A stretch of 64,000 bases of DNA from Flavobacterium sp. SLB02 (GTDB lineage Bacteria; Bacteroidota; Bacteroidia; Flavobacteriales; Flavobacteriaceae). A model generated the notes under the pieces. It had not been told where the DNA came from and made no database searches. It was given only the letters and a program-made list of their open reading frames with translations. Both the position numbers and the translations under genes were made by a program. The stretch spans positions 248,001-312,000 of the forward strand of contig NZ_CP045928.1 of the NCBI RefSeq assembly GCF_009664855.1. Reading direction: 5' to 3'. Positions 912 to 8,542 of the stretch are shown in pieces (the stretch's first letter is position 1; each line of letters begins with the position of its first letter).

Positions 912-955
912 CAAATGTAAAACCAATAAAAACCAGTATTTTATGGAAATCCGTA
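912..955 (-). promoter_or_regulatory. Promoter with TAyGG-N4-CCrTA palindrome, before DUF3892
   Basis: On the minus strand the palindrome TACGG-ATTT-CCATA (942-955) is followed after 22 bases by TACATTTG (912-919), which matches the Bacteroidota -7 consensus TAnnTTTG. The bases after the palindrome, AAAATACTG, are the same as in the site at 4463-4476. The palindrome lies where a -33 element or an activator site would be. Confidence 0.6.
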
Positions 956-999
956 ATCAGATAAGATTTGGAAATAATTTTTGAAGATTTTATAAATAG

Positions 1000-1028
1000 A
1001 AAAAAGAGGACAATAAAATTCCTCTTTC
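1000..1028 (-). terminator. Terminator of the vWA/TerB cassette
   Basis: On the minus strand AAAGAGGA and TCCTCTTT form an 8-bp stem with a 9-base loop followed by a T-rich tract. It lies 24 bases beyond the stop codon of the vWA lipoprotein gene. Confidence 0.75.
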
Positions 1029-1051
1029 AATTCGTTAGTTTTGGGTAGCGC

Positions 1052-1957
1052 TTATTCTTTATTTAGAATAAAATCTTTAATAATTTTCTCCATATTGGAT
1101 GGCAAATCAGCATTTTTAATTTCAAAATTGGTTATTTTCATTTCAGTAAACCATTTCGACCAATACGCTCTGATTACTTTTTCTTCGTATGGATTTTTTT
1201 TGTCCGGATTTATTCCTAAAACTAAAACTTCGAGATTCGATAAATCATCATTGGCTTTAATAAAACCAAAATCCTGCTCATCAAATTTTTTATCCCAATC
1301 TTTTGTATTTAAGCCGTTTTTTCGAATAAGTTCAGGAGTAATATAAGTGGTTCGGTTTCCTTCTTTCATTACAGTAGTCTCATAAAACATATAACCATCA
1401 GTCAATATGATAAGAATATTTCTGTATTTGTTTTCAATACATTGATCCTTTACTTTACTGTCAAAAAAACTCCAAATGTCTGATCCTACATATTTATTAT
1501 CTTTTATGGCCGACTCATAAATTTTGGATGTCTGCGAAGCATAATCTGAATTTATAGAATTTAATAATTCTTTTGAAGCATTATTTTTATCGATACTAAT
1601 TCTCAAATTCTGTGCAATTGTATTAATTGCGGCATCAAGAGGTTCCGGGTTAAAAAACAATTGCATCTTATCATTGATCTGTCGGATTCTTTTTGATTTT
1701 AGATGTTGGGTAAAAGCTTCAGAAACTGATTTTATATAGCCTAAATCCCTTTGGTAATATTCCATAGTGGGGTTCGGATTTTTTTCAAGGCTAATTCGAT
1801 CCGACAAATCAAGGAGTATACTAATGTTATAATCTTCAGAAACAGTACTTTTTACAGGAACTTCTGTTTCTTCTTTATAAGATTCTTTCTTGCATGAAAA
1901 AGTAGAGACGACTAAGAAAAACATCGCCATTATGGTAAAAATATTTTTCATAGCCAT
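1052..1957 (-). CDS. vWA-like domain lipoprotein
   Basis: About 300 residues with a lipoprotein signal ending FSC (Cys22 or 20 depending on start). The mature part looks like a von Willebrand A domain: the first strand ISILLDLSDRI carries a MIDAS-like DLSDR in which the usual second Ser is replaced by Arg, and a later strand is NILIILTDGYMF with the expected TDG. Between them is a long helical insertion and a GSDIWSFFDSK segment. It should sit on the periplasmic face of a membrane. The ATG at 1957 overlaps the upstream stop by one base (TAATG); a second ATG at 1951 is equally possible. Last gene of the six-gene cassette. vWA proteins paired with TerB-like proteins are known from Ter-type stress systems; that this is such a system is inference. 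Confidence 0.7.
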   Translation of the reverse strand: MAMKNIFTIMAMFFLVVSTFSCKKESYKEETEVPVKSTVSEDYNISILLDLSDRISLEKNPNPTMEYYQRDLGYIKSVSEAFTQHLKSKRIRQINDKMQLFFNPEPLDAAINTIAQNLRISIDKNNASKELLNSINSDYASQTSKIYESAIKDNKYVGSDIWSFFDSKVKDQCIENKYRNILIILTDGYMFYETTVMKEGNRTTYITPELIRKNGLNTKDWDKKFDEQDFGFIKANDDLSNLEVLVLGINPDKKNPYEEKVIRAYWSKWFTEMKITNFEIKNADLPSNMEKIIKDFILNKE

Positions 1958-3225
1958 TAATTTTTAGAATATACTAAATGTTGAAAATCAGGATCAACCA
2001 GGTTTAATTTACTTAAATGTTCTTCTGACGAAAGATCACAACTTTCCAGTAATTCGGTTTTTTCTGTGTAGGGCAGAGCGATTTCTGTATTAATAGCCTG
2101 AAACCATCCTTCTTTATATTGATGATGATAATGCAGATATTCTTTTACAGGAAATACAAAACCATCAATTTTAGACTGAAGCTCAGAGATCTTTCCGTTT
2201 ATGGTAACTATTTGTTGTTTGAAATCATTGACTTTATTTACATAATCTGTTTTTAGTTTTTCTAAATCGATGAGGTTTTCTCTTTTGCCTCTTATAAATG
2301 CTCTTATTTTATCGATGTTTTCAAACTCTTTCATCACAAAATCAAAAACAAGTCCCCAAATAATATAGACTACAAATCCGGCGAAAATAATCATCCAAAA
2401 TTCAGCTTCGCCTAAAGCAATATTTAAGTTGTAAGGTGCAGAATCTGTAGTTTTATTAAACTCATATATTTTCTTTTCGATTTGATAGGCCAATAAAGCA
2501 TCGAATAAAAAGGTGGTTACAAAAAGAGCAATCATCCTGAAAACATTTTTAACTCCTTTTCCTTTTTGCACCATATGAATGACATAACCTAGTCCCATAA
2601 ATACAAACGGAATCGTCGTTACCAAAACGCCTTCAAGCCAGCTTGCCTTAAAAGAATTCGTTAATGCATTGGCATCAAAAATGGCAGCAGTTAAACTGTC
2701 ATTCGCAAACTCTTTGAAAAATGCTGAATAAGATGCTGAAATATAAAACACTAAGACATAAAGCGTTATTGGTAATAATAAGAACAAACCAATATAAAAC
2801 TGCGCTTTTAAACCTTTACCATCTTCGATGCCGTACTTATCAGGATTGCGTTTTACTTCGATGATTTCGTTTTTAATCTCGTCGATTTCAGTATTAATAT
2901 CCTGTTCTTTCTTTTCATAAATACCTATGGCAGCTTCAGATTTTTTAAGTTCAGTTCTGTTTTTTTCCTGCTCTTCTTTATAAGGTTGTTTGAGTCGGTC
3001 TTGCTCTAACTTTTGTTTTCGGCATTGATCTTCAAAACTCATGTATAAATTTTGCAGACAGGCTTTTAAAACAATAGGTTTTCCGGTTGCTTTTATCGAT
3101 GCAGCAAAACCGCTTTGATAATAGGTTATTCTGATTTGTTCTCTGTCATCTTCATTCTCGTCTAAAGTTTTGATGTGAGAATCCTCCGTTTTCTTTAAAC
3201 TAAATAGATGTGCTAGTGGTTTCAT
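1957..3225 (-). CDS. Four-TM coiled-coil membrane protein, unknown function
   Basis: 422 residues. An N-terminal cytoplasmic part (1-70) is followed by a long charged coiled coil (about 75-135, rich in Lys/Glu), four predicted membrane segments (about 143-165, 198-217, 228-248 and 275-298), a second coiled coil (about 305-355) and an acidic C-terminal tail. There is no signal peptide, so both coiled coils and the tail are probably cytoplasmic. I recognise no family. It starts 3 bases after the TerB-like gene and its stop overlaps the start of the vWA gene, so all three are probably translationally coupled and may act together at the inner membrane. Confidence 0.75.
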   Translation of the reverse strand: MKPLAHLFSLKKTEDSHIKTLDENEDDREQIRITYYQSGFAASIKATGKPIVLKACLQNLYMSFEDQCRKQKLEQDRLKQPYKEEQEKNRTELKKSEAAIGIYEKKEQDINTEIDEIKNEIIEVKRNPDKYGIEDGKGLKAQFYIGLFLLLPITLYVLVFYISASYSAFFKEFANDSLTAAIFDANALTNSFKASWLEGVLVTTIPFVFMGLGYVIHMVQKGKGVKNVFRMIALFVTTFLFDALLAYQIEKKIYEFNKTTDSAPYNLNIALGEAEFWMIIFAGFVVYIIWGLVFDFVMKEFENIDKIRAFIRGKRENLIDLEKLKTDYVNKVNDFKQQIVTINGKISELQSKIDGFVFPVKEYLHYHHQYKEGWFQAINTEIALPYTEKTELLESCDLSSEEHLSKLNLVDPDFQHLVYSKN

Positions 3226-3228
3226 AAC

Positions 3229-3624
3229 TTAGGAATTTAATTGACTAATAATTTCTTCTTTCTGAACATTTTTCTGAACGCAATCAATAAGATAACTGGA
3301 TAAATCATTGATGTTTTCATCCAGAAAATTAAATTTCCTGCAATACTTTTTCAGCATATTTTCTTCGTCATCGGTAATTTTACCATCTGCCCAAATAATT
3401 CTTGTAAAATCGTACAGGTATTCGATTTTGATAGTTAAGTTTTCCGGTATAATCAATTCCGTATTTATAGGATTCAGAAAAAGTTTATCGAGTTCCTCTC
3501 TCGGAATTCCGCGCTCATCTGCAAAGTGATACAGCATTTGAAGTTCTAAAACATCAAATTGATCATCAGATAATGCCATTTGATATAATCTTAAAAAATG
3601 GCTTTTTAGTTCTAGTGTTATCAT
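3229..3624 (-). CDS. TerB-like helical protein
   Basis: 131 residues, all alpha by eye, with two similar half-motifs as in the TerB fold: SDDQFDVLELQMLYHFADERGI near the N-terminus and IIWADGKITDDEENMLKKYCRKF near residues 72-95. The second has the ADG-x-I-x-x-x-E signature that binds metal in TerB proteins; the first keeps only acidic residues. It is shorter than classical TerB (about 150). There is no signal, so it is cytoplasmic. Its ATG overlaps the stop of the Excalibur gene by four bases (ATGA), and the coiled-coil membrane protein gene begins 3 bases after its stop. A role in membrane-linked stress sensing is inferred from the family. Confidence 0.65.
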   Translation of the reverse strand: MITLELKSHFLRLYQMALSDDQFDVLELQMLYHFADERGIPREELDKLFLNPINTELIIPENLTIKIEYLYDFTRIIWADGKITDDEENMLKKYCRKFNFLDENINDLSSYLIDCVQKNVQKEEIISQLNS

Positions 3625-3947
3625 TGGTTTTGGTTATTTTTAGGTAAATTTTCGCATGCGATTCCGTCATTATCATTGTCCAGATTTTTGTAACAGCTTC
3701 TATTACTGTCAAACGTTGACTGAGCTTGTCCCTGTGTTTTAAAATCGCCACAAGTTTTAGTTGGACAATTTGAATTGGATGAATCTGATGAGTCTGAGCA
3801 GGAAATAGCGAAACCGATTGTCATTGTTATTAGTATCAGTACCAAGCATCCGTTATTCTTGCCTGAATACGATTTAGATCCGGTTTTGGTAAAATGTGGT
3901 TGAACATATGTTCCGTCTTTTTTAAAGTATCCTTTTCTGTATCCCAT
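3621..3947 (-). CDS. Membrane-anchored Excalibur-domain protein
   Basis: 108 residues. The N-terminal part is basic and aromatic (MGYRKGYFKKDGTYV), followed by one hydrophobic segment (about 33-49, CLVLILITMTIGFAISC), a Ser/Asp linker, and a C-terminal Excalibur calcium-binding domain: CGDFKTQGQAQ, then the signature DNDNDGIACE, in which the D-x-D-x-DG loop and Cys-Glu are intact. The paired cysteines suggest an oxidising extracytoplasmic location for that domain. It lies 2 bases after the DUF4236 gene and overlaps the TerB-like gene by 4 bases. Excalibur domains are calcium-binding and usually sit in surface proteins; here the domain may give the cassette a Ca2+-sensing or envelope-facing part. 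Confidence 0.75.
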   Translation of the reverse strand: MGYRKGYFKKDGTYVQPHFTKTGSKSYSGKNNGCLVLILITMTIGFAISCSDSSDSSNSNCPTKTCGDFKTQGQAQSTFDSNRSCYKNLDNDNDGIACENLPKNNQNQ

Positions 3948-3949
3948 GA

Positions 3950-4180
3950 TTATAAATGTTTTATTGTAAAGATTAAGAATGCGGTGATTCCTATAAATCC
4001 AAATAGTACAAGACAGCCGCTATTTTGATATCGTACTCCTGATATACCAGTTTTTACAGAATAGCCGTTTTTACTAAATGAACCCATCTTTGTTCGTAAA
4101 CTCGGAGAAATCCCTGATTTACTGATATTAAATCCAAGTCCTCCTCCGAGTTTTATTCTTTTTTGAAATCGAAAGCCCAT
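3950..4180 (-). CDS. DUF4236-domain membrane protein
   Basis: 76 residues. The N-terminal half (MGFRFQKRIKLGGGLGFNISKSG) matches the start of DUF4236 as I know it: a basic FRFxKRIKLG motif, then a Gly-rich strand and SKSG. The C-terminal half has a hydrophobic segment (about 54-73) suitable as a membrane anchor. The function of the family is unknown. Second gene of the cassette, 5 bases after the Cys-rich protein gene and 2 bases before the Excalibur gene. Confidence 0.7.
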   Translation of the reverse strand: MGFRFQKRIKLGGGLGFNISKSGISPSLRTKMGSFSKNGYSVKTGISGVRYQNSGCLVLFGFIGITAFLIFTIKHL

Positions 4181-4185
4181 TAATT

Positions 4186-4392
4186 TTAGCTTTTATGGCA
4201 TTCGTTGCAACAATTTTTGCAACCATCTGATTTAGAGTATGTTTTTTTTGCTTCTTCGACTGCAGGTTCACAGCTTGCAAAACTCCCTAAGAATTTCTTA
4301 CTTATGATGCTTTGAAAATATTGGCATACATCAGTATGAACTTCATGATCTCCACTTGATTGTGCAGTGTTGTTTACATAATAATTTTTCAT
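4186..4392 (-). CDS. Small Cys/His-rich protein, probable metal binder
   Basis: 68 residues with no signal peptide. Six cysteines and several histidines are arranged as C24, C41 and a C-terminal cluster GCKNCCNECHKS, which suggests zinc or another metal. The start MKNYYVNN and the SGDHEVHTDVC segment look like a conserved small-protein family, but I cannot name it. It is the first gene of the cassette; its ATG lies about 40 bases downstream of a TAnnTTTG promoter with the shared palindrome. Confidence 0.6.
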   Translation of the reverse strand: MKNYYVNNTAQSSGDHEVHTDVCQYFQSIISKKFLGSFASCEPAVEEAKKTYSKSDGCKNCCNECHKS

Positions 4393-4432
4393 GATTTTAA
4401 GTTTTAATGTTACATTATGATTTTTAACAATT

Positions 4433-4476
4433 CAAACTTAAACCTATTTGAAATCAGTATTTTACGGAAATCCATA
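4433..4476 (-). promoter_or_regulatory. Promoter with TAyGG-N4-CCGTA palindrome, before the vWA/TerB cassette
   Basis: On the minus strand TATGG-ATTT-CCGTA (4463-4476) is followed after 22 bases by TAAGTTTG (4433-4440), a match to TAnnTTTG. Spacing, palindrome and the downstream AAAATACTG agree with the site before DUF3892. It lies just past the terminator of the response regulator operon, so the cassette has its own promoter. Confidence 0.65.
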
Positions 4477-4501
4477 ATCACCTTTTTTTAATTTTAAGCC
4501 A

Positions 4502-4526
4502 TAAAAAAAGCCCCCGAAGGAGCTTT
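4502..4526 (-). terminator. Terminator of the kinase/regulator operon (UUCG loop)
   Basis: On the minus strand AAAGCTCC-TTCG-GGGGCTTT is followed by a run of T. The 8-bp stem has one G-U pair and a stable UUCG tetraloop. It lies 29 bases past the stop of the response regulator. Confidence 0.9.
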
Positions 4527-4554
4527 ATAGAATTAATAATATTATAACGAAACT

Positions 4555-5223
4555 TTAAATAATACCCATATCTTTTGCAATAGAAACGAGATGAACAGTA
4601 TTGTTTGCTTTAAAAAAATCTTTTAGTTTAGAAAGTCTTTTTTCCATTGCACTTTTGCTGTTGGCTTTGACATCGGAGTTTTTAAAAATCTCTACAATCT
4701 CATCCTGCGAAGTACCGTCAGACAAATGTTTTAAGATTTTAATATCGATATCGTCAATCTCGTAATTGTTTTTTTCCTGCAATGCCGAAGCAACTTCAGG
4801 AGAAATATATTTTCCTTCAGAGGTCGAAATAAGATGTATTGCTTTTTTTAATTCTTCAATGCTGGTCAAACCTTTTAATACAAAACCATCAATATCAGCA
4901 TTATCAAAAAGAGATTTTATGCGGTAACTTTTATCTTCTACAGAATACGCTATAATTTTAATATCAGGCTGTAATTCTCTAACTTTTTGAACCAGCTCAT
5001 CACCACTGGCAATTTTTACTTCCCGATGATCTGTTTTGAATGAGAGATCACTAATTAATAAATCATACGGTTCATTTTTATGAATAGCAGCACGTATTTT
5101 TAAAAACGCATCATCACAATATTTTGAATGTTGAAAATCGACAATATTTAAATCTTTTAAAACTTGTTCAATTCCTAAACTGATAGCATCAAGATCTTCG
5201 GCTATTATTACTTTTTTAAACAT
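4555..5223 (-). CDS. Response regulator with C-terminal HTH
   Basis: 222 residues. The N-terminal receiver domain (1-125) has the acidic pocket near D10, the phospho-acceptor D59 in LLISDLS, and a Lys in FVLKGL (switch region). After a linker, the C-terminal part (about 150-222) looks like a divergent LuxR/NarL-type helix-turn-helix: DIKILKHLSDGTSQDEIVEIF, then SAMEKRLSKLKDFFKANN. The partner kinase gene ends 6 bases upstream, so the two form a standard pair. A dimeric NarL-type regulator would suit the palindrome TACGG-N4-CCGTA found before three neighbouring transcription units; that link is inference. Confidence 0.85.
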   Translation of the reverse strand: MFKKVIIAEDLDAISLGIEQVLKDLNIVDFQHSKYCDDAFLKIRAAIHKNEPYDLLISDLSFKTDHREVKIASGDELVQKVRELQPDIKIIAYSVEDKSYRIKSLFDNADIDGFVLKGLTSIEELKKAIHLISTSEGKYISPEVASALQEKNNYEIDDIDIKILKHLSDGTSQDEIVEIFKNSDVKANSKSAMEKRLSKLKDFFKANNTVHLVSIAKDMGII

Positions 5224-5229
5224 AGGCTT

Positions 5230-6933
5230 TTATTTAGGCAGCGTTATTTTTACTTTGAAACTTTTTTCCGGTTCAGAGTCAAAAGTAATAGTTCCTTTTA
5301 TAGATAAAATACGGTTTTCCATACTTTGCAAGCCATTTTTTACAATTTGATCTATTTTACATCCTTTTCCGTTATCTGAATAATTGATTATGATAGTATT
5401 TGTGGTACTTTCGAACTTTAAAACCACTACGTGTGCACTACTGTGTTTTTTCATGTTGACCATTAATTCCTGTAATACTCTCTGGATAGTCACTTTTTTA
5501 ATTTCGTCGATGCTTTCCCAATTTACTTTATCGATGTTGGTAATACTAACATTGGTTTCATTACTATTATAGGTCGAAAGCATTTCCTTTAGATTAGCGG
5601 CATAATTTATTCCGGTATCGATACTATTGTTTTCTCTCGAAATTCCGCGAACTCGGGTATAAATATGATTCAGTTTTTGTAATAAATTTTCTTTTACCTC
5701 TTCTTTAGTCAAAGATTGCGTTTGTGTATAAGTTATGGCATAAAAAACGTCATTTGCCAGTTCATCATGAATGTCTTTGGCAATTCTGGTTTCGGTATCG
5801 TAGGCAGTTTTTATTTTTTCGATCCGATTTCTATTTTGATAAAACTTTCTCAAATACAGTAATAAAAGAAACAATGAAACGATACCAATTATAAAAAATA
5901 ACCTTTGATATCTTGCTTCCTGCAGCGATAATTCATTCTCCGCTTTTTGTAAACGCAGTTTTTGGTTTTCGTCTTTTTCTTTTTTAGAATCGTATTTAAT
6001 TTTGGCAAACTTGTTTTTAAAGTTGTTGCGAACCTTTATAATACTATCATTTATAGTAATATACTTTTGAGCATATTGTACATTCTTATTTCCCGAATCA
6101 TTCGAAATTAAAAATGACAAAGCTTTCAAGCGTTCATCAACACTATTAAATCTTGTAGCGATTTCATAGGCTGATTGTGCATATTGATTCGATTTTTTAG
6201 AATCGGTTTTTAAAAAATATTCTGCGAGGTGTAAATTGCTTTCGATGCTTCCGTAAAAATCATCTATTTGTTTTCTTAATTGATAACCTTCGTTCATTAA
6301 TGAAAGTCCCTTTTCAATCTGTCCCTTTTTAAAATAAGCAAAACCTAGGTTGTCAAATATCCCCGCTTTTTTTTGCAGGTCTTTATCAAGAAGTTTTTTA
6401 TCAAGTATAGATTCTAAAATTTGAATGGCTTCATCGTATTTTTTTTGATGAATAAAAACAGTTGCAATGTTATTTAAAGGAGATTGTTTTGATACTTCAT
6501 CGGTACAATCTGCGATAGCTTCGTTGTAATAATAGATCGCATCATTATACAGAGAAAGTTCTTTATCCGCAATTCCAAAGAAGTTATTTATAGCAGCGCT
6601 GTATATATCTTTCTTTTTAAGATAAGGCAAAGCTTCTGTTAGTGTTTCTTTACTTCCATAATAATCGCCGTTTATTTGCTGAATAGAGGCCATTTGAATA
6701 AGATTGTATACAATATTACTGCTGTCTTTTGTGAACTCAAATGCTATTTTGGATTTGTTAAAGTAGTAAAAAGCACTATTAAAGTTTTTTGATTGAAAGT
6801 GGTTTATTCCTTTAGATCTCAAAACACCAGCTTCATTTGAAGTCGATTTAGACTTTATAGAAGGAGTTGTTGTTTCTTTACACGAAACAAAAAAAAGGAA
6901 TATAATAAATAAAAAAAACGGGGACCGTAACAT
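5230..6933 (-). CDS. TPR-containing sensor histidine kinase
   Basis: 567 residues. It starts with a hydrophobic signal ending FVSCKE (Cys18, possible lipoprotein processing), followed by a TPR-like helical region (about 35-290) with repeats such as AFYYFNKSKIAF, AIYYYNEAIADC and AIQILESILD. A coiled coil (about 300-340) leads to one TM segment (about 343-362). The cytoplasmic kinase has an HisKA_3-type H-box, KDIHDELAND with His near 388, and a HATPase with SDNGKGC and NGLQSMENRI. This is the periplasmic-TPR kinase type common in Bacteroidota. It lies 50 bases after a small lipoprotein gene and 6 before the regulator. The signal sensed is unknown. Confidence 0.9.
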   Translation of the reverse strand: MLRSPFFLFIIFLFFVSCKETTTPSIKSKSTSNEAGVLRSKGINHFQSKNFNSAFYYFNKSKIAFEFTKDSSNIVYNLIQMASIQQINGDYYGSKETLTEALPYLKKKDIYSAAINNFFGIADKELSLYNDAIYYYNEAIADCTDEVSKQSPLNNIATVFIHQKKYDEAIQILESILDKKLLDKDLQKKAGIFDNLGFAYFKKGQIEKGLSLMNEGYQLRKQIDDFYGSIESNLHLAEYFLKTDSKKSNQYAQSAYEIATRFNSVDERLKALSFLISNDSGNKNVQYAQKYITINDSIIKVRNNFKNKFAKIKYDSKKEKDENQKLRLQKAENELSLQEARYQRLFFIIGIVSLFLLLLYLRKFYQNRNRIEKIKTAYDTETRIAKDIHDELANDVFYAITYTQTQSLTKEEVKENLLQKLNHIYTRVRGISRENNSIDTGINYAANLKEMLSTYNSNETNVSITNIDKVNWESIDEIKKVTIQRVLQELMVNMKKHSSAHVVVLKFESTTNTIIINYSDNGKGCKIDQIVKNGLQSMENRILSIKGTITFDSEPEKSFKVKITLPK

Positions 6934-6983
6934 AAAAGATACTTTCCCCGAATTTACTAATTAATTATAGATATTTACTAGAA

Positions 6984-7157
6984 TTAATTTTTTATTGGTG
7001 GTGGTGGAACTGTTATTGGTAGATCTCCAGGACCTTCAGCGTACGCTGGTACTTCGGGTTTAATATTTGCTTTAGTATCTTCGAAATCGTCAGAAGTGCA
7101 AGAAATTACAGTCGTTGTCAATAGTGCAAACGCACCCAAAATAAATATTTTTTTCAT
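6984..7157 (-). CDS. 57-residue lipoprotein upstream of the kinase
   Basis: This short gene has an ATG at 7157 and a stop at 6984-6986. The product begins MKKIFILGAFALLTTTVISC, a clear signal peptide with lipobox and Cys20, followed by an acidic stretch (TSDDFED) and a proline-rich end (PITVPPPPIKN). After processing only about 37 residues remain. It lies 50 bases upstream of the sensor kinase on the same strand with no terminator between, so it is probably the first gene of the operon. A role as accessory or signal protein for the kinase is possible but not shown. Confidence 0.7.
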   Translation of the reverse strand: MKKIFILGAFALLTTTVISCTSDDFEDTKANIKPEVPAYAEGPGDLPITVPPPPIKN

Positions 7158-7194
7158 GATTTTATGAATTAAAAATTGGACATGGGTATTGCTG

Positions 7195-7211
7195 TCCGGA
7201 ACTTTTCCGGA
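7195..7211. promoter_or_regulatory. Palindrome upstream of the lipoprotein/kinase operon
   Basis: TCCGGAA-CTT-TTCCGGA is a perfect 7-bp inverted repeat with a 3-base centre, 38 bases upstream of the lipoprotein start codon. It could be an operator or a leader hairpin. It differs from the TACGG-N4-CCGTA sites in half-site and spacing. A longer imperfect repeat, GGGAAGT ... ACTTCCC, spans about 7237-7290. Confidence 0.4.
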
Positions 7212-7305
7212 GGTTGATTTAATGCAATACCAAATTGTTTTTTTGGGAAGTGAAGTGCGTAGAACTGTAAGAGGTTGATTTATACTTCCCGGATAAATCT
7301 TGTCT

Positions 7306-7348
7306 TACGGTTTTCCGTACTTTTAATTGAACTAGTTTTGTATTTTTG
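7306..7348 (+). promoter_or_regulatory. Promoter with perfect TACGG-N4-CCGTA palindrome
   Basis: TACGG-TTTT-CCGTA (7306-7319) is a perfect inverted repeat. After 21 bases comes TATTTTTG (7341-7348), and an overlapping TAGTTTTG lies at 7333-7340; both fit TAnnTTTG. The 21-base spacing matches the 22 bases at the two minus-strand sites. The start codon of the next gene is 160 bases downstream, so the leader is long; it contains doubled short repeats (AATTCCGGG-AATTCCG, and CCTTGAAATT twice). Confidence 0.6.
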
Positions 7349-7507: not shown

Positions 7508-8542
7508 ATGCCTATGTGTAACAATACTGTAGAAGATTATTATAAAAAAGCTGTTAGAAAAAAATATGAAGAAGTTAAAAATGGGGTGAATTTTAATTTT
7601 TTGAATTCTCCTACTAGAGGAAAACTCCGCACTTTGTGTTGGGAGTTATTTGAAACACAAAATATGCGTTCTGATGATTTGATTGTTTTTAATTCTTTAC
7701 TTGGATTTCCTTTTGATATTAATGCAAAAAATAATTTTAAAAAGCATAGTAATGAATTTAGACCAATTGAAACTTTTTTAAAAGGAGAGACAGAACCATT
7801 AAGTATTGAAGTAGTAGATATGGCTGCAATTTTAGTAGGTTTTGAATCACGACCTTTTAATAAATTTAGAATTCACAATTTATACCCCGATCAAATTAAA
7901 AGTGATGATGACATAATCTTAGAAAATCAACCAAGAAGACAAAGTGAAAGTTCAGGAGATTTAGGGGGTTTTTTGGATGAAAAGGAAAGAGAAAAAGGAA
8001 TAGAAAAAGGAAGTTTTACAACGCAGACAGCAAATTTGGATGAAGGAGAAAAAGGAAAAACATTCGGTAATTCTGAAATAACACCTGACATCCCAGAGCA
8101 ACAGCGATTGAGCTTATTTAAAAAAATTAAAGAAAAAGTTTTACACAATTTTCTAAATAGATTAAAAAATACTGTAATTGCTACTGTATTTGTTTTTGGG
8201 TTAATTAGTGCAGTAATCTATTTTGCCTTTTTTAAGAATCATTGTATGCAGTGGTCACAAGATCATTATGAAGTAGTAGATTGTTCTTCAGAAAATGGAA
8301 ACACAAATGACATTATCCCATTAGATAAAAATCTTCTTGATTTTAAAAAGTTGAATGCTTGTGATACAACTACTTGTTTTAAGAAAAATGGAGAGGCTTT
8401 TGTTTGGTATGCCAAAACGTCTAACGGAATAGATTTTTTTAATGATAATGGAAATGGAAGACATCCAGAATGTAAAAAATCGCTGCGACCAGTTAGTCAA
8501 TATATTTTTAAAAGATATTTAAAAGGTAAATCTTGTGAGTAG
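7508..8542 (+). CDS. Unknown single-TM protein, cytoplasmic N-domain and Cys-containing outer domain
   Basis: 344 residues. I do not recognise the family. The first 120 residues form a soluble, mostly helical domain (YYKKAVRKKYEEVKNG, then DMAAILVGFESRPFNKF). A charged, low-complexity linker (about 140-200, rich in Glu/Lys/Gly) follows, then one membrane segment (about 221-243, NTVIATVFVFGLISAVIYFAFF), and a C-terminal domain of about 100 residues with five cysteines, including CDTTTC and a final CE. With no N-terminal signal, it should sit N-in/C-out. The layout recalls anti-sigma or transmembrane signalling proteins but shows no known motif. It is divergent from the lipoprotein/kinase operon and its promoter carries the shared palindrome. 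Confidence 0.75.
   Translation: MPMCNNTVEDYYKKAVRKKYEEVKNGVNFNFLNSPTRGKLRTLCWELFETQNMRSDDLIVFNSLLGFPFDINAKNNFKKHSNEFRPIETFLKGETEPLSIEVVDMAAILVGFESRPFNKFRIHNLYPDQIKSDDDIILENQPRRQSESSGDLGGFLDEKEREKGIEKGSFTTQTANLDEGEKGKTFGNSEITPDIPEQQRLSLFKKIKEKVLHNFLNRLKNTVIATVFVFGLISAVIYFAFFKNHCMQWSQDHYEVVDCSSENGNTNDIIPLDKNLLDFKKLNACDTTTCFKKNGEAFVWYAKTSNGIDFFNDNGNGRHPECKKSLRPVSQYIFKRYLKGKSCE

Follow-up and report, generated by a model that had tools for sequence, protein, structure and literature searches.

A predicted operator recurring beside and inside a kinase-regulator locus of Flavobacterium

ComA of the Bacillus subtilis ComP-ComA system is a NarL-family response regulator with a four-helix helix-turn-helix (HTH) domain, and its canonical operator is a TTGCGG inverted repeat with a 4-nt spacer (PMC4797271, available part). 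In the promoter studied there, the class I position is taken by the inverted repeat and the class II position by a direct repeat; an inverted repeat performs poorly when shifted to the latter place (same part of PMC4797271). A predicted operator close to that of ComA, the palindrome TACGG-N4-CCGTA, accompanies a tetratricopeptide repeat (TPR) histidine kinase and response regulator pair in Flavobacterium sp. SLB02 (contig NZ_CP045928.1, positions 248,001 to 312,000 of the forward strand). This 64 kb stretch is called the window; coordinates are positions in it, and distant sites are given as genome positions. Our sequence comparisons make it very probable that the palindrome is the operator of the regulator encoded at 4555-5223 and of its subfamily in Flavobacterium and a related family, and that a regulator dimer activates from it at a class II position.

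An earlier note on this DNA had described three palindromes, exact or one base off TACGG-N4-CCGTA, at promoters around the pair, each 21-22 bases from a TAnnTTTG -7 box where an activator site would be expected, with continuing bases shared by the two minus-strand sites. The exact strings bore this out: the palindromes stand at the places described, the gaps to the box are 22, 22 and 21 bp, the sites at 942-955 and 4463-4476 share AAATACTG, and the location fits an activator site (Table 1). Within the window 4 matches with at most one mismatch were found where 0.47 would be expected by chance, and 100 shuffles all gave fewer. All three promoter sites have a perfect TANNTTTG at gap 21 or 22, against a background of 0.10-0.14% of strand positions. 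The fourth match, absent from the earlier list, falls within the kinase gene and has a perfect box as well. In the divergent promoter the -7 box is ambiguous, because two adjacent TANNTTTG boxes occupy 7333-7348 at gaps 13 and 21. Similar paired boxes were seen in several close relatives.

The regulator loci of relatives together with the paralogue from the same genome formed a first set of 52 loci (933 kb). It contained 115 boxed sites and none for five control palindromes. Most of these loci have a boxed site behind the regulator, and this applies also to loci of another family in the order; in some, the kinase-internal boxed site is the only one. A second set comprised 80 Flavobacterium loci with a relative of the regulator, related to each other and partly from the same genomes as the first set. 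Here, a palindrome with at most 2 mismatches and a perfect box at gap 21-23 was sought up to 450 bp downstream of the regulator stop. Such a site was found in 64 of the 80 loci, and in none for each of 59 palindromes with permuted half-sites. The recurrence next to the regulator in relatives, at the own paralogue and in another family supports the suggested link between palindrome and regulator.

The paralogue, the one close copy in the genome (51% identical), carries an exact palindrome 15 bp past its stop, 22 bp from TAAGTTTG. As this paralogous kinase-regulator locus has the same operator, the two systems probably share targets. The 942-955 operator has a counterpart in 7 of ten close orthologous loci (L053-L062), a boxed site behind the corresponding cassette gene. 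A single off-consensus base, both in the regulator-following site and in the last one, is kept in 9 of these ten loci, which may reflect affinity tuning.

Class II activators centre near -41.5, and a -33 element has a promoter role in this phylum. The sigma-A box TAnnTTTG occupies -12 to -5 in Flavobacterium psychrophilum (PMC9723704, available part). The boxes considered here were required to match this consensus, and at a gap of 22 the palindrome would therefore cover -48 to -35 with its centre at -41.5. Beside the regulator gene the spacing is held at 22 bp, sometimes 21, across species. With start sites predicted from the box, class II spacing prevailed in the 80 loci: for palindromes with at most one mismatch and gaps of 8-44, 163 pairs fell at gap 22 and 25 at gap 21, followed by 17 at gap 13, 10 at gap 14 and no more than 1 at each remaining gap. 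The counts at 13 and 14 probably stem from the second box of the divergent promoter, whose homologues among the gap-21 sites look similar. Unlike other sigma-A promoters of Flavobacterium, those analyzed here have the palindrome in place of a -33 TTG; no such TTG was conserved in a profile built from 149 unique non-coding sites with gap 22, some of them related.

A regulator acting as repressor, blocking RNA polymerase at -48 to -35 until a signal releases it, would also be expected to abut the promoter, and the direction of control is not given by sequence alone. We nevertheless consider repression unlikely. The site takes the -33 place, the lack of a conserved TTG would leave a weak basal promoter, and a nearly fixed spacing of 22 bp is needed by a polymerase-contacting activator more than by a repressor. 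The activator predicted here also differs from ComA in its single inverted repeat at the class II position (as far as the available part of PMC4797271 describes ComA), in phylum, in the sigma-A boxes and in the sensor domain of the kinase. The ComA-type layout given in that part of the paper was not found, as the inverted repeat itself occupies the class II position; no scan was aimed at direct repeats. Compared with what that source describes, the system would seem to work like a NarL-type activator rather than a ComA-type promoter.

The receiver and the C-terminal four-helix HTH domain predicted by sequence and structure model indicate that the regulator is most likely NarL/RcsB-like. In an alignment of 54 sequences D10, D59 and K117 were invariant, in keeping with a receiver that has its phospho-acceptor Asp. 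The Pfam Response_reg match (E 9e-7) reached 29.5 bits, just under the cut-off of 30.2 bits. The structure model (mean predicted local distance difference test score 90.7) aligned to the RcsB receiver with Z 19.5 and a root-mean-square deviation (rmsd) of 1.9 over 137 residues, and with both domains to RcsB 6eo3_B with Z 19.3 and rmsd 4.3 over 196 residues. Its predicted C-terminal helices comprise residues 158-168, 173-182, 190-204 and 209-219. Full-length RcsB chains align as far as model residue 216-221, and the sequence profile aligns to RcsB up to query residue 190 and to NarL up to 206. The NarL/LuxR-type regulators RcsB, VraR, LiaR and spr1814 were among the best profile or full-length structural matches, although identity is only about 20% and the Pfam scan at E <=0.1 found no LuxR-type HTH family in the C-terminal domain, only a weak match to DUF5932. 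The nearest regulator with a species name is that of Flavobacterium frigidimaris (96% identical), and Flavobacterium johnsoniae strain CI04 is another carrier of the regulator.

The HATPase_c match of the kinase (E 3e-5) was likewise just under the Pfam cut-off. A small lipoprotein encoded directly upstream of the kinase may be a candidate ligand or accessory protein. ORFs (open reading frames) of 55-93 aa with a lipobox were located at most 60 bp upstream in 17 of 44 kinases adjacent to a regulator; for a lipobox ORF matching the search expression at any distance up to 450 bp this number was 21 of 44. Many of the small lipoproteins upstream of kinases end in a tail resembling DGPGDDPxxxPPP or GGQNGQTPIPPP. 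In a group of paralogous loci (L049, L082-L086, L089-L092 and L094), a single regulator is preceded by two or three TPR kinases in tandem, an arrangement that suggests several inputs into one regulator. Proteins of 76-84 aa and 267-273 aa follow the operator in most of them. The larger one in L049 matched Exo_endo_phos in Pfam, the L049 proteins being the only ones scanned among the tandem-kinase loci. L056, L058, L060 and L061 contain a second kinase unit, preceded by a small lipoprotein and separated from the regulator by about 4-7 kb; within the fetched stretch no regulator match belonging to this unit was found.

For the 54 aligned regulators, 44 adjacent kinases, i.e. those ending next to the regulator, were recovered (L093 and L100 as short ORFs); the remainder gave no ORF matching the search expression, the ORF being broken or cut or the motif variant. 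These were compared with 32 other kinases of the same loci. A palindrome with at most 2 mismatches and a perfect box at 22 bp was present in 39 of 44 adjacent kinases but in only 1 of 32 others (p 5.6e-15), and the numbers for at most one mismatch were 23 of 44 and 0 of 32. The single positive among the other kinases is the upstream kinase of L067, where the regulator-side kinase matches only in fragments. Throughout the 80 loci the internal site was found in 77 at up to 2 mismatches. Synonymous codon choice pointed in the same direction. Adjacent kinases use AAC for the Asn of the site in 36 of 36 cases compared to 31% elsewhere in the same genes, and CGT for its Arg in 38 of 44 compared to 12%, whereas the matching codons of the other kinases are AAC in 4 of 13 (28% elsewhere) and CGT in 8 of 32 (10%). 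For 21 kinases less than 50% identical, the site was found in 16, with AAC in 16 of 16 and CGT in 15 of 21. Full invariance was seen in five of 228 conserved codon columns; four of the five (residues 537, 540, 549 and 551 of the window kinase) fall within the site or box or at their margins.

The internal match could instead reflect conserved protein sequence, the residues MENR of the catalytic domain, without any role of the DNA. The encoded stretch does belong to a conserved kinase box, residue changes go with a weakened palindrome in L088 and L098, and with loss of both palindrome and box in L100. Such an explanation is nonetheless very improbable given the fixed synonymous choice, the clustering of invariant columns at site and box, and the use of other codons for similar residues in non-adjacent kinases; moreover, in L096, L101 and L103 the residues change to TENR, TDSR and TVSR, yet the palindrome stays exact. 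A mere coding coincidence at 5310-5323 was rejected on the grounds of codon choice and the contrast between adjacent and other kinases. The codon pattern suggests that the DNA itself is under selection, most simply as a promoter from which the regulator gene is transcribed.

Genome-wide counts were in agreement with the association. Exact palindromes occurred at 1.13/Mb in 36 genomes of the genus with the regulator (match E <1e-40; own genome included) and at 0.42/Mb in 25 without it (p 1.9e-6), i.e. about 2.7 times more densely, whereas the reversed control palindrome was found at 0.23/Mb and 0.25/Mb, respectively. Four genomes of family f5 with the regulator had 15, 13, 12 and 8 exact sites (controls 0, 0, 5 and 0), and the other 35 genomes of the order 27 in total compared to 53 controls. 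We inspected 130 distinct exact sites in selected genomes out of 100, with regulator-adjacent sites included among those of regulator genomes; for some genomes these were a part of the exact sites (4 of 8 for G096). The box was present at gap 22 in 33 of 93 sites from regulator genomes and in 3 of 37 from genomes without the regulator (p 0.001). At L287 in G034, counted as without regulator, a distant relative of the regulator (30% identity) is followed after about 20 bp by an exact palindrome that has no perfect box at gaps 20-24. From L287, the operator may be older than this regulator subfamily.

In the own genome the exact palindrome was found 5 times compared to 0 for the reversed control, and the pyrimidine/purine (Y/R) form TAYGG-N4-CCRTA 18 times compared to 9. 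The exact or Y/R form is useful as a marker, best together with the box. The one-mismatch palindrome alone was rejected as a regulon marker; only the exact and Y/R forms were enriched.

Several observations weigh against an activator operator of this regulator. The one-mismatch palindrome was not enriched in the own genome (63 sites, 81 for the reversed control). Counting gaps 21-23, a box was found at 40 of the 93 inspected exact sites in regulator genomes, so that more than half are unboxed. Under our thresholds 16 of 80 loci have no downstream and 3 of 80 no internal site, and 5 of the 52 loci (L073, L074, L088, L092 and L097) have no boxed site at all. As the 80 loci are related, mostly from one genus and overlap with the first set, they do not represent 80 independent events. 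Activation rather than repression is suggested by position alone. G056, without a close regulator, has one boxed site at gap 21, and G058, classed as without regulator on account of a weak match only, has three sites with the box at gap 22. The G058 sites (L296, L304 and L305) are exact palindromes followed by TATGTTTG.

The sites of G058 would suit a protein encoded elsewhere that reads the palindrome and has the kinase-regulator pair as one of its targets. Operators flanking the pair, with one inside it, are what a target would look like, and such an unlinked factor is compatible with the sequences, from which alone the association is known. It is, however, highly unlikely in our judgement. 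Two diverged regulator loci in one genome both have the site, genomes with the regulator are enriched while those without are much nearer to the control, and a second family of the order shows the association as well. In addition, the predicted recognition helix of the regulator is conserved, with E194 and K195 invariant and R196 present in 50 of 54 sequences.

Assuming that the regulator itself reads the palindrome, signals would reach the TPR lipoprotein kinase, which would phosphorylate the regulator. A regulator dimer would then bind the palindrome near -41.5 and recruit sigma-A RNA polymerase to promoters without a -33 element. Putative targets are the gene block behind the regulator, the unit encoding DUF3892, the gene for the divergent membrane protein, and accessory genes at distant sites. 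The operator and box embedded in catalytic-domain codons of the kinase probably drive a positive loop that raises the regulator and not the kinase. More tentatively, and with considerable doubt, a positive-feedback switch of this kind may be kept in kinase codons across diverged Flavobacteria, with one to several TPR lipoprotein kinases feeding the regulator, many of them with a small lipoprotein as possible ligand, and with a changing accessory set of which some members are defence-like (AbiD, HSDR_N nuclease, HsdM, AAA ATPase).

The regulon appears to reach beyond the locus. A perfect box at 21 or 22 bp accompanies 9 of the 18 Y/R-form sites found genome-wide and is absent from the other 9. 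The boxed ones are the four window sites, that behind the paralogue (6327162) and those at 858190, 3731025, 3897525 and 4052692. The first gene at 4052692 has a match in one other genome of 100 (G064, from another family), where it lies directly behind the regulator and the same operator and is followed by a similar second gene. Given the distant boxed sites and this parallel, the regulon is no self-contained unit, and operators are probably shared between the two regulators. The small self-contained regulon of three flanking units proposed earlier was not supported, with a fourth site in the kinase gene and five boxed sites elsewhere in the genome.

Table 1. Features of the locus, with positions in the 64 kb window
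Feature	Position	Strand	Details
Putative target, DUF3892 protein, 96 aa	572-862	-	Pfam PF13031, E 9.4e-17
-7 box TACATTTG, DUF3892 unit	912-919	-	Consensus from PMC9723704 (available part)
Predicted operator TACGGATTTCCATA	942-955	-	22 bp from box TACATTTG; DUF3892 unit
Putative target, cassette gene, 301 aa	1052-1957	-	Weak sub-cutoff Pfam match to other family
Putative target, cassette gene, 422 aa	1957-3225	-	No Pfam match
Putative target, cassette gene, TerB-like	3229-3624	-	Pfam PF05099, E 1e-5
Putative target, cassette gene, Excalibur domain	3621-3947	-	Pfam PF05901, E 5.4e-7
Putative target, cassette gene, DUF4236	3950-4180	-	Pfam PF14020, E 1.9e-8
First putative target after regulator, 68 aa	4186-4392	-	ORF; no Pfam match
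-7 box TAAGTTTG	4433-4440	-	String match
Predicted operator TATGGATTTCCGTA, just 3' of regulator gene	4463-4476	-	22 bp from box TAAGTTTG
Response regulator, 222 aa, receiver and four-helix HTH domain	4555-5223	-	Pfam, alignment, model
Histidine kinase, 567 aa, lipoprotein-type N terminus, TPR repeats	5230-6933	-	TPR_12, E 8e-13
-7 box TACTTTTG within kinase gene	5280-5287	-	Perfect; 22 bp from 5310-5323 operator
Predicted operator TATGGAAAACCGTA within kinase gene	5310-5323	-	Codons for MENR; about 100 bp before regulator start
Small lipoprotein, 57 aa, directly upstream of kinase	6985-7157	-	Possible ligand or accessory
Predicted operator TACGGTTTTCCGTA, divergent unit	7306-7319	+	21 bp from box TATTTTTG
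Second TANNTTTG match TAGTTTTG, divergent promoter	7333-7340	+	Gap 13
-7 box TATTTTTG, divergent unit	7341-7348	+	Gap 21
Divergent putative target, 344 aa, called membrane protein	7508-8542	+	ORF; no Pfam, NCBIfam or PADLOC match

The name vWA, given earlier to the gene at 1052-1957, was not confirmed by the Pfam scan. Across the loci, the first to fourth ORF behind the sites were considered as putative targets; 49 representatives were located (one more was not found) and 30 of these scanned against Pfam. The families comprised KTSC, DUF1508, YidD, HSDR_N nuclease, an Abi protein (AbiD in PADLOC), exo/endonuclease, HsdM, protein kinase, AAA ATPase, D-Tyr-tRNA deacylase and outer-membrane barrels, and many proteins had no family. 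PADLOC searches with ten proteins gave mixed matches, several of them broad kinase or ATPase ones, and we therefore claim no defence function for the regulon. Of four window targets searched, the TerB-like protein matched PDC-S48 (E 4.8e-5) and the 422 aa protein LmuB (E 7.5e-4), both weakly, and two gave no match. Matches to the DUF3892 protein were found in 3 of 100 genomes and to a distal 325 aa target in 2 of 60, own genome counted in both cases. As targets traced singly occur in few genomes, operator conservation at distal sites is checkable mainly for the pair at 4052692. Three other genomes share an exact palindrome with the box at gap 23 (L149 2757, L155 2824 and L179 2865), followed by genes which, from their sequences, we take to encode nucleotide-sugar dehydrogenase-like and sugar nucleotidyltransferase-like proteins.

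Among the matches listed by word-match searches of open-licence literature, aimed at this motif or system and at promoters inside kinase genes, no title or abstract described the present system. The promoter apparently kept by codon choice within the kinase gene would be a case of overlapping coding and regulatory information. For many small domains, such as DUF3892, DUF4236, DUF1508, KTSC and TerB-like, a mode of regulation can now be proposed. An understudied phylum gains a specific and testable prediction, of both operator and regulon, for a two-component family found widely in Flavobacterium.

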